Origin: Bdellovibrio sp. CG22_combo_CG10-13_8_21_14_all_39_27
Lineage (GTDB): Bacteria; Bdellovibrionota; Bacteriovoracia; Bacteriovoracales; Bacteriovoracaceae
Length of the DNA stretch: 33,118 nt
Assembly: GCA_002786715.1 (NCBI GenBank)
Contig: PCTW01000094.1
Location: 9,563 to 42,680 of the forward strand
Reading direction: 5' to 3'
Notes under the pieces: generated by a model
What the model was told of the DNA's origin: nothing
Databases searched by the model: none
Seen by the model: the letters and a program-made list of their open reading frames with translations, nothing else
Shown: positions 18,159-29,804 of the stretch, piece after piece
Position numbering within the stretch: the stretch's first letter is position 1
Layout of the letters: the number at the start of each line of letters is the position of its first letter
Program-made: the position numbers and the translations under genes

Positions 18159-18221
18159 CTCTCCACTTCACAAATACTTATCCTCCATGAACAGGGCGGC
18201 TCAAGTCGCCCACTCTAAAAT

Positions 18222-18251
18222 AAAAAAACCCACCTTTAGGTGGGTTTTTTT
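18222..18251. terminator. Strong bidirectional intrinsic terminator
   Basis: A6-7 CCCACC TTTA GGTGGG T7: a 6-bp GC stem extended by seven A-T pairs, loop TTTA, T run on both strands. It lies upstream of the PhoD-like gene and downstream of the toxin-antitoxin genes. It insulates the PhoD/mtfA transcript from transcription arriving from the right on the minus strand. Confidence 0.9.
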
Positions 18252-18303
18252 ATTTTGGAGGTTTCTTTAGAAATTCCATATTATTGATAAGTTAAATGCT
18301 ATT

Positions 18304-18416: not shown

Positions 18417-18767
18417 TTAAGAGGCTTTGTCATCAGAAATGAGATCAAAAACAGTCTCAGGGTCTTTTTCAATCATGCTCAAGAGTCTACAAGCAGGTGC
18501 TGGCATTACTCTTAAACCTTGTTCCCAATGCTGTACAGCTGAAGTCGTTACTCCAAAGATGGATGCAAAAACTGCTTGGCTTAATCCTAGGCTGGCTCTG
18601 ATTTTTTTTATTTTGGCCTTTGAATACATCGGGGGTTCTGCAATTTTGGTTGCAAAGTGCGACTTCAATTGTCGTTCTCCACGTACGTGTTCAAGAATCT
18701 CATTAGCAGATTTTAGAAGTAACTCTTCAAAGTTGTCTTCGTTTACAATTTCTTTTTTGGTTGCCAT
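18417..18767 (-). CDS. HigA/XRE-type antitoxin
   Basis: 116 residues. The C-terminal half is a canonical XRE helix-turn-helix: SKAKIKKIRASLGLSQAVFASIFGV (about 49-73), then TTSAVQHWEQGLRVMPAPA (about 74-92) and a final helix LSMIEKDPETVFDLI. This is the form of antitoxins that follow their toxin in HigBA-type loci. AGGAG lies about ten bases before the ATG. The start is 25 bp inside the toxin gene, so translation is coupled. It is expected to neutralise the toxin and to repress the shared promoter through the operator palindrome upstream of the toxin gene. Confidence 0.85.
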   Translation of the reverse strand: MATKKEIVNEDNFEELLLKSANEILEHVRGERQLKSHFATKIAEPPMYSKAKIKKIRASLGLSQAVFASIFGVTTSAVQHWEQGLRVMPAPACRLLSMIEKDPETVFDLISDDKAS

Positions 18768-19108
18768 GCTTTCAGCTCCTGTCCAATGTTTTTCAGTACC
18801 TGTTTTGCTGCATCGGAAATATTTCCAAGACTCGACTTACTGTACACAATCGCCAAATAAACAATCTCGCGTTGTGGCCAATCCAAGTAGATGACTCTCA
18901 CGCCACCACTTTTACCGATACTCTGATCTTTAAGTGAAACTCTCACTTTCGTGAATCCACCAGTTCCCTGAATCATGTCTCTTGCTGTGACGGGAAGTTC
19001 TAAATCCCTCAAAACCTCTTGTTCAATGTCTCGTAGCAATTCATCTGAGTTCGCAAAGGCCCTTAACTGCTTTTCAAACTGATCCGTAAGAATAAATTCT
19101 CTTCCCAT
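18743..19108 (-). CDS. RelE/HigB-type toxin
   Basis: 121 residues from the ATG at 19108, chosen because AAGGAGAG sits just before it; an upstream ATG would put the start inside the promoter. It shows the RelE/ParE-like layout: N-terminal helices (TDQFEKQLRAFANSDELLRD), a beta core with KVRVSLKDQSIGKSGGVRVIYLDW (about 66-89) and a final strand IVYLAIVYSKSS, then a C-terminal helical tail. RelE-type toxins cut mRNA on the ribosome; the catalytic residues cannot be assigned with certainty. The gene order toxin then antitoxin is that of HigBA. Next to the integrase it could stabilise the mobile element. Confidence 0.8.
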   Translation of the reverse strand: MGREFILTDQFEKQLRAFANSDELLRDIEQEVLRDLELPVTARDMIQGTGGFTKVRVSLKDQSIGKSGGVRVIYLDWPQREIVYLAIVYSKSSLGNISDAAKQVLKNIGQELKAWQPKKKL

Positions 19109-19126
19109 CTCTCTCCTTGAAAGACA

Positions 19127-19160
19127 CCTACATTGTAGCACGTACCACGATGTAGGACAA
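19127..19160 (-). promoter_or_regulatory. Toxin-antitoxin promoter embedded in an operator palindrome
   Basis: Reading the minus strand, TTGTCC (19155-19160) and TACAAT (19132-19137) are separated by exactly 17 bp, a good sigma70 promoter ending about 24 bp before the toxin ATG. A 10-bp inverted repeat with one mismatch (CCTACATTGT at 19127-19136 and ACGATGTAGG at 19147-19156, 10 bp between) covers the -10 and touches the -35. This is the expected design for autorepression by the antitoxin or the toxin-antitoxin complex. Confidence 0.7.
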
Positions 19161-19197: not shown

Positions 19198-20343
19198 CTA
19201 TCTTCGGGCAGTAAGGCTAAAGACATTGTCCCCAAAATTTATATCCTCTGGAACAAAGTGAAGGCAGTCCGTAGCCCCCTTCGTATCAACACCAGCAAGC
19301 CGTAAATAAATGTCCATCGTTGCAGATTTTTTCCAACCACCAATTTTCATTACGATTGGTGCGGAAACCCCGTTGGCCAGCATTTGCGTAGCAAAGCAAG
19401 CTCTTAGAGCATGGAACTTAATCGGCTTTACCTTAATAGCTCGAAGAAATGCCTTTAGTGGCACGGCCTGATCTCCATTATCCCAATCTTTACTTCTTGG
19501 AAGAACAAAACCTGAATTAACAAGATTCATATTTTGCTTTAAATCCAGAATAAGATTGCGAAGACTACTATTGATAGGAACAGTACGCCAGTATCTACCT
19601 TTGGTTGGGCCAACTATCTTCACATTTGAATCATAAGAACGATCAACTAGAATCAAATTCTTCTCCAAATCAACTTGTTCCCATGTTAAAGCATGAAGCT
19701 CACCACTTCGCATTCCTGTCAAAATCGCAAATGCCCATATTGGATACCAATGATGACTCAGAGCTTTGGCAGCCGCTAGGAACTTTCTTATTTCTTCAAG
19801 TGAAAAAATATCTGGAGCTTTTTCTTCCCCCTTATCAATCATCAGTCCCTCAAGAGGCGAAACATTTGGTCCAACTATATAGTTGAACTCCATCCCCCAA
19901 GAATACACCTTGTTAATGATGTTTTTAACTTTGATTTGATAAGTGCGAGACAAACCATTTTTCTCCATAAGTAGAAGAAGTGCTCGTCCGTCAGCTCTAG
20001 TTATTTCAGATGCAGGCCTATCATTCCAAGGCTTCGTCCATTTCTGTATGATACTTAAGTATCCCTCGGCTGATCGCTCTGTGATTCGACCTAAATATCC
20101 AGCATAAACCTCTTTTTTCCAGAGATGGAGAACGTCGTACCATGATAAACCTAGGCCATCAAATCGTTGAGCCTCTTTCGATAACTGACCTATTAGCCTT
20201 TTTTCTTCTCGTCTTGCTTCTGCTTCTGTCGTTATGCGGAACACTGTCTTTTGAAATCGTTTACTTTTGTTATTCACACTTCGTATGTGAATGTAAACTT
20301 TCCAAAATTCTTGTCCGTTCTCTAGGTACTTCGATATTGCCAT
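19198..20343 (-). CDS. Tyrosine recombinase / integrase
   Basis: 381 residues. An N-terminal arm-binding region (about 1-60), a core-binding SAM-like domain (about 65-155) and a catalytic domain (about 180-355) are visible. Catalytic residues: Arg212 in LTGMRSGEL, a candidate Lys248 in PTKGR, His311 and Arg314 in HALRACFATQ, Trp337 in GGW (the position more often His) and Tyr346 in MDIYLR. All required residues are present, so it is probably active. It would excise and integrate the conjugative element. AAGGAG precedes the ATG by seven bases, and the excisionase-like gene ends 2 bp upstream, so they are co-transcribed. Confidence 0.93.
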   Translation of the reverse strand: MAISKYLENGQEFWKVYIHIRSVNNKSKRFQKTVFRITTEAEARREEKRLIGQLSKEAQRFDGLGLSWYDVLHLWKKEVYAGYLGRITERSAEGYLSIIQKWTKPWNDRPASEITRADGRALLLLMEKNGLSRTYQIKVKNIINKVYSWGMEFNYIVGPNVSPLEGLMIDKGEEKAPDIFSLEEIRKFLAAAKALSHHWYPIWAFAILTGMRSGELHALTWEQVDLEKNLILVDRSYDSNVKIVGPTKGRYWRTVPINSSLRNLILDLKQNMNLVNSGFVLPRSKDWDNGDQAVPLKAFLRAIKVKPIKFHALRACFATQMLANGVSAPIVMKIGGWKKSATMDIYLRLAGVDTKGATDCLHFVPEDINFGDNVFSLTARR

Positions 20344-20345
20344 GA

Positions 20346-20615
20346 TTAATCTCCTTTAAATTGGGAAGTCTCAATCAAGTAGTCCAGCTCATCTTTTTTG
20401 AAGTAAAGTCTATTGCTGAATTTTCTGGCACGAAGTCGCTTACGAGAAACTAAAGTGTGAACAGCGTTTATACTTCTACGCAAATAAATAGCAGTTTCTT
20501 TCGTCGTCAACCATATTAAATTATCAAAGATCAATTTCGAAAAATGAATTTTCTTTTCGATATCAAGATTATAATCATATTTATCTACTTTGTAACTATT
20601 GTTTTCAACCTGCAT
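20346..20615 (-). CDS. Excisionase-like HTH (MerR/AlpA-type) protein
   Basis: 89 residues. The C-terminal half (about 32-84) is a small winged helix of the excisionase/MerR type: WLTTKETAIYLRRSINAVHTLVSRKRLRARKFSNRLYFKKDELDYLI, seen here as two short helices, a basic recognition region and the closing YFKKDEL strand and helix. Such proteins bind near the attachment site and steer the integrase to excision. AGGAGAG precedes the ATG. It lies between the SSB gene (9 bp upstream) and the integrase gene (2 bp downstream), fitting a recombination directionality factor. It might instead be a simple regulator. Confidence 0.75.
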   Translation of the reverse strand: MQVENNSYKVDKYDYNLDIEKKIHFSKLIFDNLIWLTTKETAIYLRRSINAVHTLVSRKRLRARKFSNRLYFKKDELDYLIETSQFKGD

Positions 20616-20624
20616 TTATCTCTC

Positions 20625-20930
20625 CTAAATATTAGTAAATCCAACGAGACGAGCATTCAGTTCTTTGTATTTTTTGGTTTCACCAGTCTCCGTTTCAAAA
20701 CTCCTTTCGACTTCACGACCCTGCACAAAAATCTCGTTCCCCTTATCGAGCTGAACTGAGCAAAGCTCTGCTTGTCTGCCCCAAACCACAACTTTTTTCC
20801 AAATAGGAGGAATCTCTTTTCCTTGATAGACGGCCACAGAAAAATTACATACAGGTTCCCGTTTTGGGGTATAACGAAGCTCTGGTTTTTGTCCAAGTCT
20901 TCCCACAAATGTCTCATATATAGTTTCCAT
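20625..20930 (-). CDS. ssb: Single-stranded DNA-binding protein, short form
   Basis: 101 residues, only the OB fold: FVGRLGQKPELRYTPKREPVCNFSVAV near the start, then WKKVVVWGRQAELCSVQLDKGNEIFVQGREVER, and ELNARLVGF at the end. These are the normal SSB strand motifs. There is no glycine-rich linker and no acidic C-terminal tip, which in chromosomal SSB (about 170 residues) recruits partner proteins. Mobile elements often carry their own SSB to protect the transferred strand. AAGGAG lies nine bases before ATG. It is placed between the small basic protein and the excisionase-like gene in the DNA-processing end of the element. Confidence 0.88.
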   Translation of the reverse strand: METIYETFVGRLGQKPELRYTPKREPVCNFSVAVYQGKEIPPIWKKVVVWGRQAELCSVQLDKGNEIFVQGREVERSFETETGETKKYKELNARLVGFTNI

Positions 20931-20951: not shown

Positions 20952-21350
20952 TTAAGAAATCTTTAACTGACGTACCAAAAATTCTCCGAGATTAAGATTC
21001 TCTCCAGACTTTTCATTATGTTTCTCAAGGAGCATCAAGACTTTATCCATTTCTCCTAGTGTAGATTCTTGAATCCTTTCTAAATCTTTAGACGTAATCT
21101 TCATTAATGCATAATCAACTAAATCTTTAAAAACCACTTCCCTTCCAATTTTTTTTTGATTAACCTCATTAATCAGCTTGACCACTAATTCATGTTTTTT
21201 TGTCTCTAATGAATAATCTATAAAAAACTTCTTCTGATCCTTAATTGTGACCTTCTCCTTAATTCTTTTTCGCCCTCTTCTCTTTTTCTCAGTATCCTCA
21301 ATCTTTTTTACAACTTCTCCTTTTACAATACTAACTTCTTCTACTTTCAT
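20952..21350 (-). CDS. Small basic protein, candidate relaxosome accessory
   Basis: 132 residues, not recognised. Residues about 21-30 are very basic (EKKRRGRKRIKEK, with an AT-hook-like RGRKR core). The rest is helical and charged: VTIKDQKKFFIDYSLETKKHELVVKLINEV, a lysine-rich centre and a C-terminal helix ending GEFLVRQLKIS. The middle segment (GREVVFKDLVDYAL) is reminiscent of DNA-binding accessory proteins that help relaxases. It is the first gene after the large inverted repeat, with AAGGAG ten bases before ATG, and is followed by ssb. A role in binding the repeat is inferred from composition and position only. Confidence 0.5.
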   Translation of the reverse strand: MKVEEVSIVKGEVVKKIEDTEKKRRGRKRIKEKVTIKDQKKFFIDYSLETKKHELVVKLINEVNQKKIGREVVFKDLVDYALMKITSKDLERIQESTLGEMDKVLMLLEKHNEKSGENLNLGEFLVRQLKIS

Positions 21351-21386
21351 ACTTTACTAACTCCTTTTTCTTAATCTATTTTCCAT

Positions 21387-21521
21387 CGCCCCTGCCAATA
21401 TTTCCTTCTTCAGGTAATTGTGATTGACCTTTTGACCCTATCCATTCCACTTGTGGGAGGGGGAGGGTCAAAAGTCACGAGCGTAATTACCTGATAGTAA
21501 ATAGGAATATCGGCAGGGGCG
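21387..21521. repeat. 135-bp nested inverted repeat, candidate origin of transfer
   Basis: Three arm pairs nest around one centre. Outer: CGCCCCTGCC (21387-21396) with GGCAGGGGCG (21512-21521), continued imperfectly inward by AATATTTCC / GGAATAT. Middle: CAGGTAATT (21411-21419) with AATTACCTG (21484-21492). Inner: GACCTTTTGACCCT (21426-21439) with AGGGTCAAAAGTC (21464-21476), one base bulged. At the tip lies CCAC-TT-GTGG (21447-21456). It occupies the gap between the relaxase candidate and the small basic protein gene, where oriT sites lie. It could alternatively be a replication origin or an unusual regulatory RNA element; there is no T run to make it a terminator. Confidence 0.6.
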
Positions 21522-21560
21522 AATTTTTGAGGATTGAATGGGAAAGTTTTGGGAAAAAAT

Positions 21561-22265
21561 CTATTCACCAAAAATCTCTTTAAAACTCTTCTCCTGACCT
21601 TTAAAATAACAATATGATTCAATATACGAGAATTTGTCAGGAGTTAACTCAAGTGCATGCATTATTATAATCTTGCTTTGCACATCAGAGTTCATTTCAC
21701 CTAAAAACCTCGCATAACTCCAAAACAGCCCCTTTTTATGTGTAACAAAAACACAATAATCAAAAGTCTTGCTCCTTGAGTACCTTGAATACTTGGTCTT
21801 AACTCGATTACTTGCTTTTTGAGTTAATTCAACTTCAATTGCCAGTTCATACTCTCTACCTCCTTTAATCCCCGTCAGTAATGCATCTGGTTCGATTTCA
21901 TTTTCAATAATTTCATGAAACATTCTTCCATTTGTAAATCTTTCAAATTGAAGAAATGACCTAAGAACAGTGCCAACGATAATGTCATGGTTTAAAGATT
22001 CGTCACTTATTTCATAGGTTTTATCAAACGTAGTAAACTTGATTCCATGATTAGTTAGAAAGATGTGCTTCTTCTTTCTGCCAAGATTCTCCGACTTTAA
22101 AAGTCCAAGCTCTTCAAGTTTTTTTACTTTTTTTCTCAAATTTGAGTATTCTATTTTGAAACTGCAAAGTTCAGATAAAGAATTAAAATCCACAACCTTC
22201 CATTTACCAATCGTATTGATTATATCCATGTAAGGGCCATGCGGAACAAATTGAGAAGATTTCAA
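21561..22265 (-). CDS. Candidate MOBC-type (PD-(D/E)XK-like) relaxase / replication-relaxation protein
   Basis: 234 residues. The first 75 form a winged helix (VVDFNSLSELCSFKIEYSNL, KKLEELGLLKS, KKKHIFLTNHG). After it comes a nuclease-like pattern: His93 (LNHDIIVG), Glu125-Pro-Asp127 (IEPDALLTG), then Glu144 and Glu146 with Lys150 (AIEVELTQK), and a basic helix SNRVKTKYSRYSRS leading to FDYCVFVTHKKG. Winged helix plus PD-(D/E)XK is the layout of MobC of plasmid CloDF13 (MOBC family, about 240 residues) and of the Replic_Relax family. No HUH or tyrosine-relaxase motif is seen in any gene here. The overlap of 4 bp with the coupling-protein gene repeats the mobB-mobC order. Assignment is by pattern, not by a search. 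Confidence 0.6.
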   Translation of the reverse strand: MKSSQFVPHGPYMDIINTIGKWKVVDFNSLSELCSFKIEYSNLRKKVKKLEELGLLKSENLGRKKKHIFLTNHGIKFTTFDKTYEISDESLNHDIIVGTVLRSFLQFERFTNGRMFHEIIENEIEPDALLTGIKGGREYELAIEVELTQKASNRVKTKYSRYSRSKTFDYCVFVTHKKGLFWSYARFLGEMNSDVQSKIIIMHALELTPDKFSYIESYCYFKGQEKSFKEIFGE

Positions 22266-23761
22266 AGGGCATCTCCTTTTGTTTTTATATTCACCATTTT
22301 TTTAACATCCTTAGGGATTTGAATCTTATCGAGAAGACCTTCTTTTTCAAAAAAGCGAACATTACTTTCTGTTACTTCTGGATCAATATGCTTGATATTA
22401 ACTAGGTCAATTCTTGTCGGACCATGTCTTAATAAAATGCATTGTCCAGAGTTTAGATTTTTAATAAGGTTGGCATGAACAACTAACTCTTCAACCTTCC
22501 TTTGGCTTCCTTGCCCCTGCTCTTCCCCATCTTTTACTCTTACAGTATTCTTCTTACCTTCGAGAGTTCCAATCGCGTCAGAAAATAAATTGGCCCCCTT
22601 CTCCATTCTCTGCTTAAGAATAAACCAATTTGAACTGTTCTCTAAAATTTGCTCGCAAAGGTCAGGGTTCACTTTATTAATATCGCTAGGTGACTGAAAA
22701 GCAAAAGTTAGCTCCATTTTGACACCACGGCATTTATTTAATAGTTCAATAAATTCATCCGTAATGAATGCAGAGAGTTCATCAATATAGACGCCTACAG
22801 GCGTTAATGATTTTTCGAGCTCAATTGTAATTTCGCTGTACTTTTTATAAACTGCGTATGAAAGATCACCCAGAATAATTTTACCTAAGGCCCTTGCAAT
22901 TTTTGGATACCCAAGTACTGGCATTCCTATATAGACGCACTTTCCATTATTCCAAATGTCTCCGATGGACTGACCTGTACTCGTTAATTTGTCACCAAAA
23001 TCTGAATGTATTATGTTTTCGAGTCGGGCAATGAGTCCATCAACATCCTTTCTTGCAAACTGTTGTTCTTTATTTTTAGGATCGCATAGCTCTTTTACTT
23101 TATAGAGGATAGAGCCAAAATGAATGCTCTCACCCATTTCCAAAATAGTTGTTATGGAAGTTTTTAAGGCGCGATAGCATAAAGTTTCATAATGCTCTTC
23201 AGACCAGTCAAAAGAGTAATGGATTCGATCTGCTATATGAGTCGCACTACCGTCTTTAGCAGGGTTTAAATCGATGGCCCCATATCCAAAATAATGCTCT
23301 GAAAAAATACTAAATTCACGTGCCGTTAGCCGACAAAGATTAATAAACTGATGTAGCGATTTGTTATCTCCCTTCGGATCAAGATAGATTATAGGCTTGC
23401 CTTTTCTCATGTCATCATACATAAGTACATCGAGAAGCACTGTTTTTCCAAAGCCTGAAGCTCCAATGATCGCACTATGTTTTTTTCGTTCAAAATCTTG
23501 AAGCAACAAATCTTTCTTCTGTGTTAATGAATATCCAAGCGCATTCTCATCTAAAGTGGACCTTTTGTTCTTCAAATCACCTCGCTCAATCTTTTTAATT
23601 TCACCCTTAGATTCTCTTTTGAACACATATCTATTGAGTCCCCACATGATGCCAAGTCCCAAAAACTCAAATCCCTTCATTATTGCAATAGAGAGAAGAT
23701 CAATAACGGGCACAATAAATTCACCCAGTCCCGAATCAGACGACTTACTTTTGGAAGCCAT
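22262..23761 (-). CDS. Type IV coupling protein (VirD4/TraD/TraG-type ATPase)
   Basis: 499 residues from ATG 23761, which has GAAGGAG seven bases before it; the longer reading frame would overlap the upstream gene by 65 bp. A hydrophobic N-terminal region (about 15-45) anchors it. Walker A is GASGFGKT (100-107), the following strand IIYLDPKGDN fits VirD4-type proteins, and Walker B is VGVYIDELSAF (about 309-319), then FAFQSPSDI, a glutamine-containing motif. The hexamer moves the relaxase-DNA complex to the secretion channel. It is shorter than F TraD and lacks a long C-terminal tail. It overlaps the relaxase candidate by 4 bp and the upstream gene by 17 bp. Confidence 0.88.
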   Translation of the reverse strand: MASKSKSSDSGLGEFIVPVIDLLSIAIMKGFEFLGLGIMWGLNRYVFKRESKGEIKKIERGDLKNKRSTLDENALGYSLTQKKDLLLQDFERKKHSAIIGASGFGKTVLLDVLMYDDMRKGKPIIYLDPKGDNKSLHQFINLCRLTAREFSIFSEHYFGYGAIDLNPAKDGSATHIADRIHYSFDWSEEHYETLCYRALKTSITTILEMGESIHFGSILYKVKELCDPKNKEQQFARKDVDGLIARLENIIHSDFGDKLTSTGQSIGDIWNNGKCVYIGMPVLGYPKIARALGKIILGDLSYAVYKKYSEITIELEKSLTPVGVYIDELSAFITDEFIELLNKCRGVKMELTFAFQSPSDINKVNPDLCEQILENSSNWFILKQRMEKGANLFSDAIGTLEGKKNTVRVKDGEEQGQGSQRKVEELVVHANLIKNLNSGQCILLRHGPTRIDLVNIKHIDPEVTESNVRFFEKEGLLDKIQIPKDVKKMVNIKTKGDAL

Positions 23762-24278
23762 TCTTCTCTCCTTCAAATTGTTGATCATAAGCATGTTCAA
23801 AAACTTCAAAAGCAGGAATATAGAAAGTCTTGTTGCCTTTTTTGACGTATCTCTCTTTTGATTGATACTTAATTAAAAACTGCTGATTAACCTTGCCTCT
23901 TAGTTCTTCAGGTAACTTTGTCACTGGAACGGGATAAGCTGCTTTCTTTTCTAAAAGAGCATCAATTTTGATATCTCCAAGCCCTAGCTCGATTTCGTTA
24001 GGGTTAACTTTCTCTTCGTCCCTTAACATATTCTTAAGCTTGTAATTTCTTGGATCATCTTCATAGAGCGCATATCCAGCGATTGCCGCGATTCCTGCAC
24101 CAATGATTCCAAAGACCGCAGCATTAGCACCTCGACTTTCATTATCTGGCGAGAGCAAGATACCCGCAGTTGCTCCAATCATTCCCCCTGATAAAGAGCT
24201 ATAGATAATCGTTTTTTTTAGGCTTGAGCATCTACAAAGCGATACCATCAAGAATACGGACATTATTATTTTATTCAT
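23745..24278 (-). CDS. Glycine-zipper envelope protein (possible VirB7-like lipoprotein)
   Basis: 177 residues. A signal-like N-terminus (KIIMSVFLMVSLCRCSS) has cysteines at 15 and 17, neither in a perfect lipobox. Residues about 30-70 are a glycine-zipper pattern with two membrane-compatible stretches (GGMIGATAGILL, GIIGAGIAAIAGYAL). The remainder is soluble and charged, ending with TFYIPAFEVFEHAYDQQF. Glycine-zipper proteins often span or pack in the outer membrane. Its place between VirB10-like and VirD4-like genes suits an outer-membrane core component. It overlaps the VirB10-like gene by 8 bp and the coupling protein gene by 17 bp. No precise family recognised. Confidence 0.6.
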   Translation of the reverse strand: MNKIIMSVFLMVSLCRCSSLKKTIIYSSLSGGMIGATAGILLSPDNESRGANAAVFGIIGAGIAAIAGYALYEDDPRNYKLKNMLRDEEKVNPNEIELGLGDIKIDALLEKKAAYPVPVTKLPEELRGKVNQQFLIKYQSKERYVKKGNKTFYIPAFEVFEHAYDQQFEGEKNGFQK

Positions 24279-25068
24279 CTTGTGACCTCTTACTAAGTTT
24301 CAAATTCTTGTTAAAAAAGATTAAAACCTCTTTGCCAGAATTGACGTATGCAATGGTTAAGTTCTTCTCACCCGACTCTTCAATCGTCTCTTTGACATTA
24401 TTGGCAGTATTCATAATTCCACCCATCACCTTGTTTTTAGCGTTGTTCCTAGAGACTTCTCCAAAAGGTGTCTGTATTCGATCCTTTGCCACTTCGAGAA
24501 CACCTTGAAGAAATGCAGAGAGTGAAGAAGTCAAAAAGGCCTTCTCTTCTCCTGAATAAAAATAGTCGGCAATAACTCCTTCCGCTCCGTCCATGTCCCA
24601 GATATCAATGTCAACTTCATATTCTTCGTCATTTAAGACCAGTAAATTACAATGAGCTGGTACTCGTTTTTGAAAGCTGTATCCTAGACACCTTATTTCG
24701 GCTCCCTCTAAAAGATCATCATCATTTCCAAGTCGTACAATGAATTTTGACGGTTTAACATTCATTGCTAAAATGGAATTTAAGACGATTCCCTTTACTC
24801 TCTTTAGAGCAACAACTTTTTCATTCTTCTTGCGTAAAATGACGTTCTTCTCTTGTCGCTCTAGAATCTCAAAGAGTTTATTGTCCTCGGAAATAAGTTG
24901 CCCTAAGAGTATTTCCTGCTGACTTGTCCTTCTTTGGAGCGACCTTTTTGAAACTGAACCTACTGAAGCTTTAGACGAATGTTCATAGTCATAGAGCTCT
25001 TGACTATCTAACTCAATAAATCCTGCTATTGCTAAGTAAGGAATCATGAAGAGAACAAGTATTTTCAT
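24271..25068 (-). CDS. VirB10/TraB/TrbI-like T4SS core protein, short form
   Basis: 265 residues. The region about 95-215 resembles the C-terminal beta-barrel of VirB10: VKGIVLNSILAMNVKPSKFIVRL, a CLGYSFQKRVPAHCNLLVL pair of strands with two cysteines, VDIDIWDMDGAEGVIADYF, then SSLSAFLQGVLEVA for the helical segment that in VirB10 crosses the outer membrane. Unlike normal VirB10 (about 380-480 residues) there is no cytoplasmic tail, inner-membrane helix or proline-rich linker: the N-terminus is a cleavable-looking signal (MKILVLFMIPYLAIAG). It follows the VirB9-like gene (4-bp overlap) in the expected 8-9-10 order. Confidence 0.72.
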   Translation of the reverse strand: MKILVLFMIPYLAIAGFIELDSQELYDYEHSSKASVGSVSKRSLQRRTSQQEILLGQLISEDNKLFEILERQEKNVILRKKNEKVVALKRVKGIVLNSILAMNVKPSKFIVRLGNDDDLLEGAEIRCLGYSFQKRVPAHCNLLVLNDEEYEVDIDIWDMDGAEGVIADYFYSGEEKAFLTSSLSAFLQGVLEVAKDRIQTPFGEVSRNNAKNKVMGGIMNTANNVKETIEESGEKNLTIAYVNSGKEVLIFFNKNLKLSKRSQDE

Positions 25069-27194: not shown

Positions 27195-27883
27195 AGGCTT
27201 CCCTCGTGATTTGAAAGCGGATCAATTGATTGATTAATGCCAATCCAGTCGCGATAAAACTCTTCACGCCTAAGGTCTTCAAGTCCTTCACTTCTTTTCA
27301 GTGATAAATCAACTCTTTGATAATCAAGGTTATCTCTTCTCATTTTTGTAAGGATTTTACTTGAAAGGGCCGTATTCATTGCCGTATTCTGGACATGCTT
27401 ACTCATACTCCCTTCACTGGCACTCATGATCTCTTGATTATGGGCCTCCTCCTCATCCTTTAATGAATTTGAAACCTTCTCCCAATGACGATCCACAAAG
27501 TCTTGTGCTTCAAAAACGTCTCTGGCCATAAAATCAATATTTGCTTTTAACCCCTTAAGATTAAGTTTTAATCTCAGCATCATTTGATTGATTTCTTTTA
27601 GTCCATGCGGCCTCATTTTCTTGGCCTCAACAATATCTAAAACGTGTTGTTCGATCCTTCGAGCAATAAAATAGCGTCTCATCGCGATAAAGTTGTATTT
27701 ATCGATTTGATCACTGGTCTTTTTTGCCACCTCCAATATTTTGAGCGAATTTGAAACAGTTGACGAAGTATTAGATACCAACATCAAAAGGGCCGCAGTA
27801 TCAGAGTCAGGTAAAAATAAGCTTGATGCTCTAGCTCCAAATGTGAGAATCATTATTATTAAAACTAATTGTATCTTGTGCAT
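27191..27883 (-). CDS. Exported helical protein in VirB5 position
   Basis: 230 residues from ATG 27883, chosen because it gives a signal peptide (MHKIQLVLIIMILTFGARAS); the longer reading frame lies deeper in the VirB4 gene. The mature protein is almost entirely helical and rich in charged residues (ARRIEQHVLDIVEAKK, MMLRLKLNLKGLKANIDFMARDVFEAQDFVDRHW, SKILTKMRRDNLDYQRVDLSL). VirB5/TraC-type pilus-tip or adhesin proteins are secreted helical bundles of this size and sit between VirB4 and VirB6, as here. No signature residue proves it. It overlaps the VirB4 3' end by 53 bp and the VirB6-like gene by 4 bp. Confidence 0.6.
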   Translation of the reverse strand: MHKIQLVLIIMILTFGARASSLFLPDSDTAALLMLVSNTSSTVSNSLKILEVAKKTSDQIDKYNFIAMRRYFIARRIEQHVLDIVEAKKMRPHGLKEINQMMLRLKLNLKGLKANIDFMARDVFEAQDFVDRHWEKVSNSLKDEEEAHNQEIMSASEGSMSKHVQNTAMNTALSSKILTKMRRDNLDYQRVDLSLKRSEGLEDLRREEFYRDWIGINQSIDPLSNHEGSL

Positions 27884-29804
27884 ATTTAAGCCCCACAAAG
27901 GCATCGATGGCCTTTTTATTGTTTTCAAAAAAATCAGTATTTTTAGCTAAAAACCGATCTAGTCGTACTGACTCACCGGCTTCGGTGTGAAAAAGTTCGT
28001 GCTCTAAAGGTGTCAGATAGTTTCGAATGACCTTTCTAAATTTGTTATCAGTCGTCTTCAAATAACAATCACTAAAGATACCTTTTTCAAAATCAAGAGA
28101 GTTCACTTTATCGATGTCGTCTTGGGTTAGTTCTCCTCCGACATCAAGCTCTTGAGGAAAATAAACTTTAAAGTTACTGGTATTAGTAATTGCGAGAGAA
28201 AGATCTCCCTTTTTTCCCTTAAAGTCCTTAATCCCTTGAGTAAGTGCAATGGGGAAGGCTCCGCTCTTTCTAAAAGTTCTGAAACATTTTTCGACATAAG
28301 AGGAGTGTTCCTCTAAAAAATTCCAGCACTCATCAAATACAAGAATTTTTTCCTTTTCAGGAATATTCTTAAAATATTCCAAAAGATAGATGATGAGTGG
28401 AGAAATAATGCTTTTTGGATAACTTTCAATATCTACATAGAGAATTGGGAAAAACTCTAAAGGTTTATCTGTGACAAACTCTTTAATGTCTTCGAAGTAG
28501 TATCGAATTCCTTCGAAAAAATTATCAAGATAATTGAGAAAATCAATAAAGTTTCGCTCATTTGCTTTTTCCAGATAGTTCTTTATGTGAAAAAACAGCT
28601 CTCCTCGTTTTAATTTATCGAACTTATCCTTATCTGCGACTGATAAGATGATTTCTCGAAGATAGTGGGGATCATCAAACTGCATGAAGTTGATTCCAGA
28701 ATTGAGAACGTTCCCACCATGGTATTGAGTCAGCCTTTTAAATGATCCTCCCAAATCTAAAATAACTGTGGGGTGATCTATGATGAGATGATGAACCAAT
28801 TTGTTCACAAAAACTGATTTTCCGGCACCAGTGGTTCCAGTCACAAGCATGTTTCTATTTTTGATCTCTTTACAGAAGGGGTTGAAAAAGATTTCATTAT
28901 CGTTTTGATCGTGTAGCCTTACTCCCCGATCCATAAGAAATGATCGTCTTAGAGGCAGTAGATAGCGAAGATGTGACGTTTTATCTGTGTGTGTCCTTAC
29001 TCCAAGTGACGGCCTCACTCCTGGGATGAGTTCATTGAAAACAAAGGCCAGTCCAGATTTTCCTCTTTTCGGGTCATGCCCTTCAAGAAAGAGCTTTATT
29101 CCTTTTGATGCCATGGAACCTTGGAGAATCATTGCGAGTTCATTGACTTCAAAAGTTGAGTCACCTCTTAAAATAAAAAATAGTTCTATCTCAAAAATGG
29201 CCTCTTGCCCGTAGGCGAGATCATCAAGTAGTTCCTCTGCTTGTCGATATGCCCCCTCACTTACAACATCTCTTTTATTTTTACTAAAGCTGGTCAAATG
29301 GCGATCTCTAACCTTTTCAAGTTGCTTGACTGATTTTTCTTTAGAAACTTTCTTAACCTTTAAGACATAGTCCAGATCAAGAGGAATAAGGGATTCATCA
29401 ATTGATTTCTCTGAAAATTCTCTCACAGAGAAGACTTTGAGGTATTTACCGTTTATCAAAAGGTAATCATTAAAAATGCCAACATCAGAAATAATTTCAT
29501 TTGATTTGAAAAACTCTAGTAAATGATCTTTACACGGAAAAAATTCTATTCCTCTCAACTCAGGAATTGTTTGTTTATTGGTTTCAACAAAGTTTCTATT
29601 ATCGATTCGGTAAAACTTAAAATAGTGATCATCTGAGAGATAATTTAAGCTTCCTGAAATACCCTCAAAGAATCGCTCGCGCTCAAAGGGAGAATACTGC
29701 TCAAAATCGGGAGAAATCAACTCATAAAAGTATGCTACGTTACCATCGAGTGCTATAAGTTTATGATCATCTATTTCAACGATGGGAAAAGTTGCGCTAT
29801 TCAT
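27831..29804 (-). CDS. VirB4/TraC-family conjugation ATPase
   Basis: 657 residues. An N-terminal domain without motifs (about 1-290) contains the FEIELFFILRGDS and FVFNELIPGVRPSLGVRT segments typical of TraC/VirB4. The ATPase core has Walker A GTTGAGKS (323-330) followed by NKLVHHLIIDHPTVILDLGGSFKRL, Walker B KILVFDECWNFL (about 490-501), then FRTFRKSGAFPIALTQG, the arginine/Gln motif region. It energises pilus assembly and DNA transfer at the inner membrane. Somewhat short against TraC/VirB4 (about 790-870). AGGA lies about seven bases before ATG. It overlaps the VirB3-like gene by 8 bp. Confidence 0.92.
   Translation of the reverse strand: MNSATFPIVEIDDHKLIALDGNVAYFYELISPDFEQYSPFERERFFEGISGSLNYLSDDHYFKFYRIDNRNFVETNKQTIPELRGIEFFPCKDHLLEFFKSNEIISDVGIFNDYLLINGKYLKVFSVREFSEKSIDESLIPLDLDYVLKVKKVSKEKSVKQLEKVRDRHLTSFSKNKRDVVSEGAYRQAEELLDDLAYGQEAIFEIELFFILRGDSTFEVNELAMILQGSMASKGIKLFLEGHDPKRGKSGLAFVFNELIPGVRPSLGVRTHTDKTSHLRYLLPLRRSFLMDRGVRLHDQNDNEIFFNPFCKEIKNRNMLVTGTTGAGKSVFVNKLVHHLIIDHPTVILDLGGSFKRLTQYHGGNVLNSGINFMQFDDPHYLREIILSVADKDKFDKLKRGELFFHIKNYLEKANERNFIDFLNYLDNFFEGIRYYFEDIKEFVTDKPLEFFPILYVDIESYPKSIISPLIIYLLEYFKNIPEKEKILVFDECWNFLEEHSSYVEKCFRTFRKSGAFPIALTQGIKDFKGKKGDLSLAITNTSNFKVYFPQELDVGGELTQDDIDKVNSLDFEKGIFSDCYLKTTDNKFRKVIRNYLTPLEHELFHTEAGESVRLDRFLAKNTDFFENNKKAIDAFVGLKYAQDTISFNNNDSHIWS

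Follow-up and report, generated by a model that had tools for sequence, protein, structure and literature searches.

The stretch of DNA analysed here, referred to as the window, is 33,118 nt long and carries a run of genes on its minus strand. In their order these encode a VirB4/TraC-type ATPase (27831–29804; PF19044, 3.4e-15; TIGR02746, 9.4e-25), several unassigned proteins, a TrbI-like channel protein (24271–25068; PF03743, 2.7e-11), a TraG/TraD-type coupling protein (22262–23809; PF12696, 9.5e-10; TIGR03743, 2.8e-38) and a protein of 234 aa (21561–22265). The coupling protein gene leads directly into the gene for the 234-aa protein with a 4 nt overlap, and beyond the latter lies a large nested inverted repeat. 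Further along the same strand are the genes for a 132-aa basic protein (20952–21350), a single-strand binding protein (SSB; 20625–20930; PF00436, 3.2e-20), an excisionase-like HTH_17 protein (20346–20615; PF12728, 1.8e-8) and a tyrosine integrase (19198–20343; PF00589, 8.7e-20). Relatives carry the same gene block.

The earlier note had placed a small basic protein and an SSB beside the repeat, and both are present. The 132-aa protein has a KKRxGR stretch and a helical domain and is a possible relaxosome accessory. Its basic N-terminal stretch, KKRRGRKR, which precedes the helical domain, is disordered and AT-hook-like, and no fold match to the protein was found in the PDB. Attachment sites of the window element were looked for and not found; the contig ends at the end of the window and the right end of the element is therefore not seen. 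Between the integrase and the chromosomal genes, at 18417–19141, is a RelE-like toxin and MqsA/HTH antitoxin-like pair, and similar small pairs are carried by the elements of relatives. At the left edge of this element region a second strong hairpin (18213–18260), with a perfect 22 bp stem (AAAATAAAAAAACCCACC...GGTGGGTTTTTTTATTTT), is a bidirectional terminator of the ordinary kind.

The nested inverted repeat and the 234-aa protein

The inverted repeat spans 137 bp (21386–21522, not assigned to a strand) and is made up of three arm pairs with a common centre near 21452–21454. The outer pair (21386–21402 and 21506–21522) is 17 nt with 94% paired match, the middle pair (21410–21419 and 21485–21494) is 10 nt with 100%, and the inner pair (21429–21450 and 21453–21474) is 22 nt with 82%. 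It lies 39 bp downstream of the 234-aa gene, within a 210 bp intergenic gap (21351–21560) between the open reading frames of the 234-aa and 132-aa proteins. The arrangement of arms around a shared centre in a gene-free gap of this length, as first described from the letters of the sequence, is thus borne out. Folding of the strand gives one nested stem, with an MFE of −70.1 (z −9.0) under RNA parameters and −37.2 (z −9.1) under DNA parameters. None of 200 shuffles matched this stability, and the 135 nt hairpin fold is the most stable among 2199 sliding 135 nt windows across the 33 kb; symmetry far beyond chance was rightly claimed. The claim that there is no T run stands for one strand only. 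In the direction of the flanking genes, on the minus strand, no T run is found and no terminator is called, whereas on the plus strand TTTTT follows the right arm at 21525–21529.

On its own the 234-aa protein matches no NCBIfam family and, at a significant level, no Pfam family, Replic_Relax (PF13814) included. Replic_Relax does match 9 of 32 relatives of the protein, the best at 1.5e-6. A profile of the family aligned by hhalign with TraX of pTEF1, a plasmid typed as MOBC, at an E-value of 2.4e-6 over 194 columns, and with a CloDF13-type MobC at 2.1e-7. The residues that are invariant in the family include H93, D94, D127, E144, E146 and K150. In the aligned core PDA...EVELTQK of the 234-aa protein corresponds to AD...FEIELTMK in TraX and PDA...FEVERTVK in MobC, so that the acidic and lysine motif residues of the three coincide.

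The AlphaFold model of the protein (pLDDT 90.9) begins with a winged helix, after which comes a PD-(D/E)XK-like nuclease. Residues 1–82 of the model match MarR-type winged helices (Z about 12), PaqCI aligns to residues 90–222 (Z 10.7), and the top Foldseek matches are to FokI. No MOBC relaxase is among the solved structures matching the model, which has no bearing on membership. A winged helix and a PD-(D/E)XK domain make up the build of MOBC relaxases, of which TraX is the studied case (PMC12857230, PMC5714925); TraX has an N-terminal winged helix, its activity as a relaxase is proven, and its active site resembles that of restriction enzymes (PMC12857230). On the strength of the family-profile matches, the predicted nuclease fold and this reviewed build, the 234-aa protein is therefore treated as a divergent MOBC-type relaxase, and the relaxase candidate proposed beside the hairpin gains an assignment. 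None of the classical relaxase families PF03432, PF08751 and PF07514 occurs in the window's genome. Of 8 genomes tested, 3 have PF03432, on contigs that do not carry the elements described here.

Conservation of the hairpin with the relaxase gene

No relative was confirmed when genome contigs were searched with only the 234-aa protein, and the contig search for the loci of relatives was done with an alignment of the coupling protein. A strong hairpin follows closely on the stop codon in almost all homologues of the 234-aa protein, down to identities of about 25%. Among the family loci with enough downstream sequence the hairpin is present in 57 of 59, giving 51 distinct copies in the Bacteriovoracales; the two loci that lack it are a copy that is broken and an intact but divergent homologue (L065). 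The signature described below was later found within 120 nt of the relaxase stop codon in all of 20 further loci (judged by the lengths of their contigs, 16 of them new and 4 on contigs already used), where 0.02 would be expected from shuffles. Locus L089, which has a related coupling protein without such a relaxase, is also without a hairpin. The relaxase family is present in 79 of 129 genomes of the order Bacteriovoracales, and the covariance model finds hairpins in 25 of 59 relatives. The hairpin thus co-occurs with the relaxase gene across an order of bacteria.

In the whole genome from which the window comes, the relaxase family is represented at least six times and every copy has its own hairpin, so that several such elements coexist there. 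The hairpin repeat of the window is single in this genome at the DNA level. The loci L160:3968–4868 and L014:7194–8408 each have a pair of hairpins of this type within 1.3 kb of one another, and no relaxase gene close by.

Covariation among relatives had been set beforehand as a refuting test, and the arms proved to be both conserved and compensating. When 45 hairpins are aligned over their apical part, 95.9% of the cells are paired, and slid controls reach a pairing of at most 48%. There are 184 double-changed cells in this alignment versus 68 in shuffles. Outer arms of 50 nt pair with their own partner at −49.8 kcal/mol, versus −30.1 when matched with those from elsewhere; in 31 of 43 cases no arm from another locus pairs better than the own one. 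The ends of the outer stem fall into classes, CGCCCCTGCC versus GCCCGCTAA-like, as in L018–L027 versus L034–L047. These classes may be related to relaxase groups and could set specificity.

At the apex of the hairpin is a conserved signature. The apical stem starts TGAC[CT] and ends GTCA in all 51 copies, and [ACT]AC follows exactly 10 nt past TGAC[CT] in 50 of the 51. The apical loop and the right side are of variable length among copies. In the window this apical core reads TGACC-N10-CAC-A...GGGTCA on the minus strand (21433–21470), as identified by the signature alignment and by the covariance model R1, which matches at 21411–21492. A distance that is fixed on one strand only suggests that the signature may be read by a protein. 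The half of the signature with this fixed spacing, at 21450–21466 on the minus strand, is therefore the best candidate for the nic region, in view of the 50 of 51 copies and of the enterococcal hairpins considered below.

The hairpin also occurs in small elements. In G016 a 5.2 kb element between 20 bp repeats of a tRNA-Glu end contains an integrase, xis, two toxin-antitoxin-like genes, a relaxase relative, the hairpin and two further genes, and has no coupling protein. An 8.5 kb element at tRNA-Met in G036 has the same mobility parts; in both, integrase, xis, relaxase and hairpin are the only ones recognised. Of the hairpins that at first seemed to lack a relaxase, about half turned out to adjoin a more divergent one. 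A 6.2 kb element in G012, between 26 bp repeats at tRNA-Glu, has an integrase and a hairpin, and no relaxase was found in it by profile or by a Pfam scan of its main genes. The signature of its hairpin is altered, with CTCG for CACG. G015 and G017 also have relaxase-less elements, whose far ends were not located. A hairpin in a relaxase-less element is what would be expected if an oriT were acted on in trans.

The hairpin as a probable origin of transfer and its known counterparts

Taken together, these comparisons indicate that the hairpin is very probably the oriT of an integrative conjugative element in the Bacteriovoracales, nicked by the adjacent MOBC-type relaxase. The relaxase neighbour, the order-wide co-occurrence, the covarying arms and an apical signature common with enterococcal hairpins all support the interpretation as an oriT put forward in the earlier note. 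Counting against it are the absence of an iteron array like that of pAD1, the absence of the hairpin from CloDF13-type plasmids, the E-value of 0.06 for R1 in pTEF1, the intact L065 locus without a hairpin and the altered signature in G012. The support is strong and comparative but is not proof, cruciform formation and transfer themselves being putative. After excision, the relaxase, probably helped by the 132-aa basic protein and the SSB, would bind the hairpin region, with the hairpin perhaps extruded as a cruciform. The nick it makes would be in one strand, with the apical core TGAC[CT]-N10-[ACT]AC or its close surroundings as the most likely place. The adjacent TraD-type coupling protein would then receive the strand and deliver it to the type IV secretion channel.

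It is improbable that the hairpin acts instead as an RNA element, an attenuator or processing structure in a transcript from the transfer genes that controls the 132-aa, SSB, xis and int genes. Its position would fit such a role, always upstream of the integrase-side genes and in the same direction, also in relaxase-less elements, and G-U pairs are slightly more frequent than A-C mismatches (45 vs 28, p 0.06). However, G-U makes up only about 2% of aligned arm positions, a search of Rfam with the hairpin matched no family, no terminator is called, and the enterococcal counterpart lies in a plasmid oriT region, between the coupling protein and relaxase genes, without an integrase. Hairpins act as single-strand origins in rolling-circle plasmids. 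With an SSB gene nearby and a Pfam family named Replication-relaxation, the repeat could be seen as a replication or single-strand (lagging-strand) origin of the excised element, with the 234-aa protein as a replication initiator. This is very improbable, since the gene adjoins that of the coupling protein as in MOBC transfer modules, the signature is common to enterococcal oriT regions, and the relative TraX is the proven relaxase with a restriction-enzyme-like active site (PMC12857230). An additional replication role, beside transfer, is possible.

Long inverted repeats are also common in transposable-element relics (MITE), attachment sites and terminators, yet it is scarcely conceivable that this repeat is one of them. 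A MITE or dispersed repeat is rejected by the single copy at the DNA level, and the other hairpins found by the model in the window's genome all adjoin relaxase-family genes. An attachment site is contradicted by the attachment repeats of relatives, which are at tRNA 3' ends, away from the hairpin; a terminator is rejected, as none is called there.

Of the relaxases, the MOBC type is one of the least understood: a covalent DNA intermediate has never been observed, and the route of the strand to the channel is open (PMC12857230). Read as an oriT, the hairpin has a signature common across phyla, which confines the likely nic region to about 20 bases. The model of sequence and structure is a way to find oriTs of the MOBC type, including relaxase-less hitchhikers that gene-based scans miss, and it has exposed a wealth of conjugative and mobilizable elements in the Bacteriovoracales. 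Among the papers searched there was none on MOBC in the Bdellovibrionota and, on relaxases in Bacteriovorax, only one apparently unrelated review. A wider proposal is offered tentatively, as one that may well turn out otherwise: MOBC-type relaxases of the Bacillota and the Bdellovibrionota might share one old oriT code, the apex TGACY-N10-HAC of a long DNA hairpin that a restriction-enzyme-like relaxase would read as a folded structure, on which a network of conjugative, mobilizable and oriT-only elements of predatory bacteria would be built.

Integrative and mobilizable elements with a MOBC relaxase are known (PMC5704250), and relaxase-less elements with an oriT resembling that of a helper are described as oriT mimicry in work cited in PMC11389934. 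The small elements resemble these in being tRNA-integrated and in carrying an integrase and the hairpin, with or without a relaxase. They differ in that the site is a MOBC-type hairpin in the Bdellovibrionota, where mobilisation in trans is putative.

The CloDF13-type mobB-mobC system is similar in that the relaxase gene is overlapped by the coupling protein gene and in that MobC matches the 234-aa family profile and has the same acidic and lysine motif. A search of CloDF13-type plasmids with R1 gave no match, and no comparable signature-bearing hairpin was found in them. Because these MOBC plasmids lack it, the hairpin is not general to MOBC. A signature-like string is present in CloDF13 itself, which may be chance.

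A likeness in structure exists to the sex-pheromone plasmids of Enterococcus, such as pAM373 and the pAD1-like pTEF1. The oriT of pAD1/pAM373 is reportedly a ~140 bp inverted repeat with short direct repeats (Francia and Clewell 2002). In seven enterococcal MOBC plasmids (pTEF1, pAM373 and five others with a TraX relative) the strongest hairpin is a nested one of ~140 nt upstream of the TraX gene, and between it and the coupling protein gene where the latter is annotated. The inverted repeat is 142 bp in pTEF1 and 137 bp in the window, both near the genes for a coupling protein and a MOBC relaxase, the relaxase gene following the coupling protein gene. All seven have the apical signature TGACC-N10-AACG...GGTCA, with the same spacing as the hairpins of the Bacteriovoracales. 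Although R1 was built from Bdellovibrionota hairpins only, its best match in five enterococcal MOBC plasmids is the oriT-region hairpin (E 2.6e-8 to 0.0065); in pTEF1 this hairpin is the best match of 10 kb but a weak one (E 0.06). The relaxases are also alike in having a winged helix and a PD-(D/E)XK domain, which for the window protein is model-based.

There are differences from the pAD1 type. The window hairpin is downstream of the relaxase gene, whereas the enterococcal one is between the relaxase and coupling protein genes. The relaxase is only about 16% identical to TraX, and the system is a chromosomal element in a Gram-negative phylum. TraX binds five direct repeats ~70–120 bp from nic (PMC12857230), and short direct repeats are visible beside the hairpin in pTEF1. 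No short direct-repeat (iteron) array like this binding site is present at 21200–21800, so the window site is a variant and not a pAD1-type oriT. Unlike pAD1 in its position and in having no repeat array, and not common to CloDF13-type plasmids, the site is strongly supported by these sequence comparisons as a putative variant of the MOBC-type oriT.
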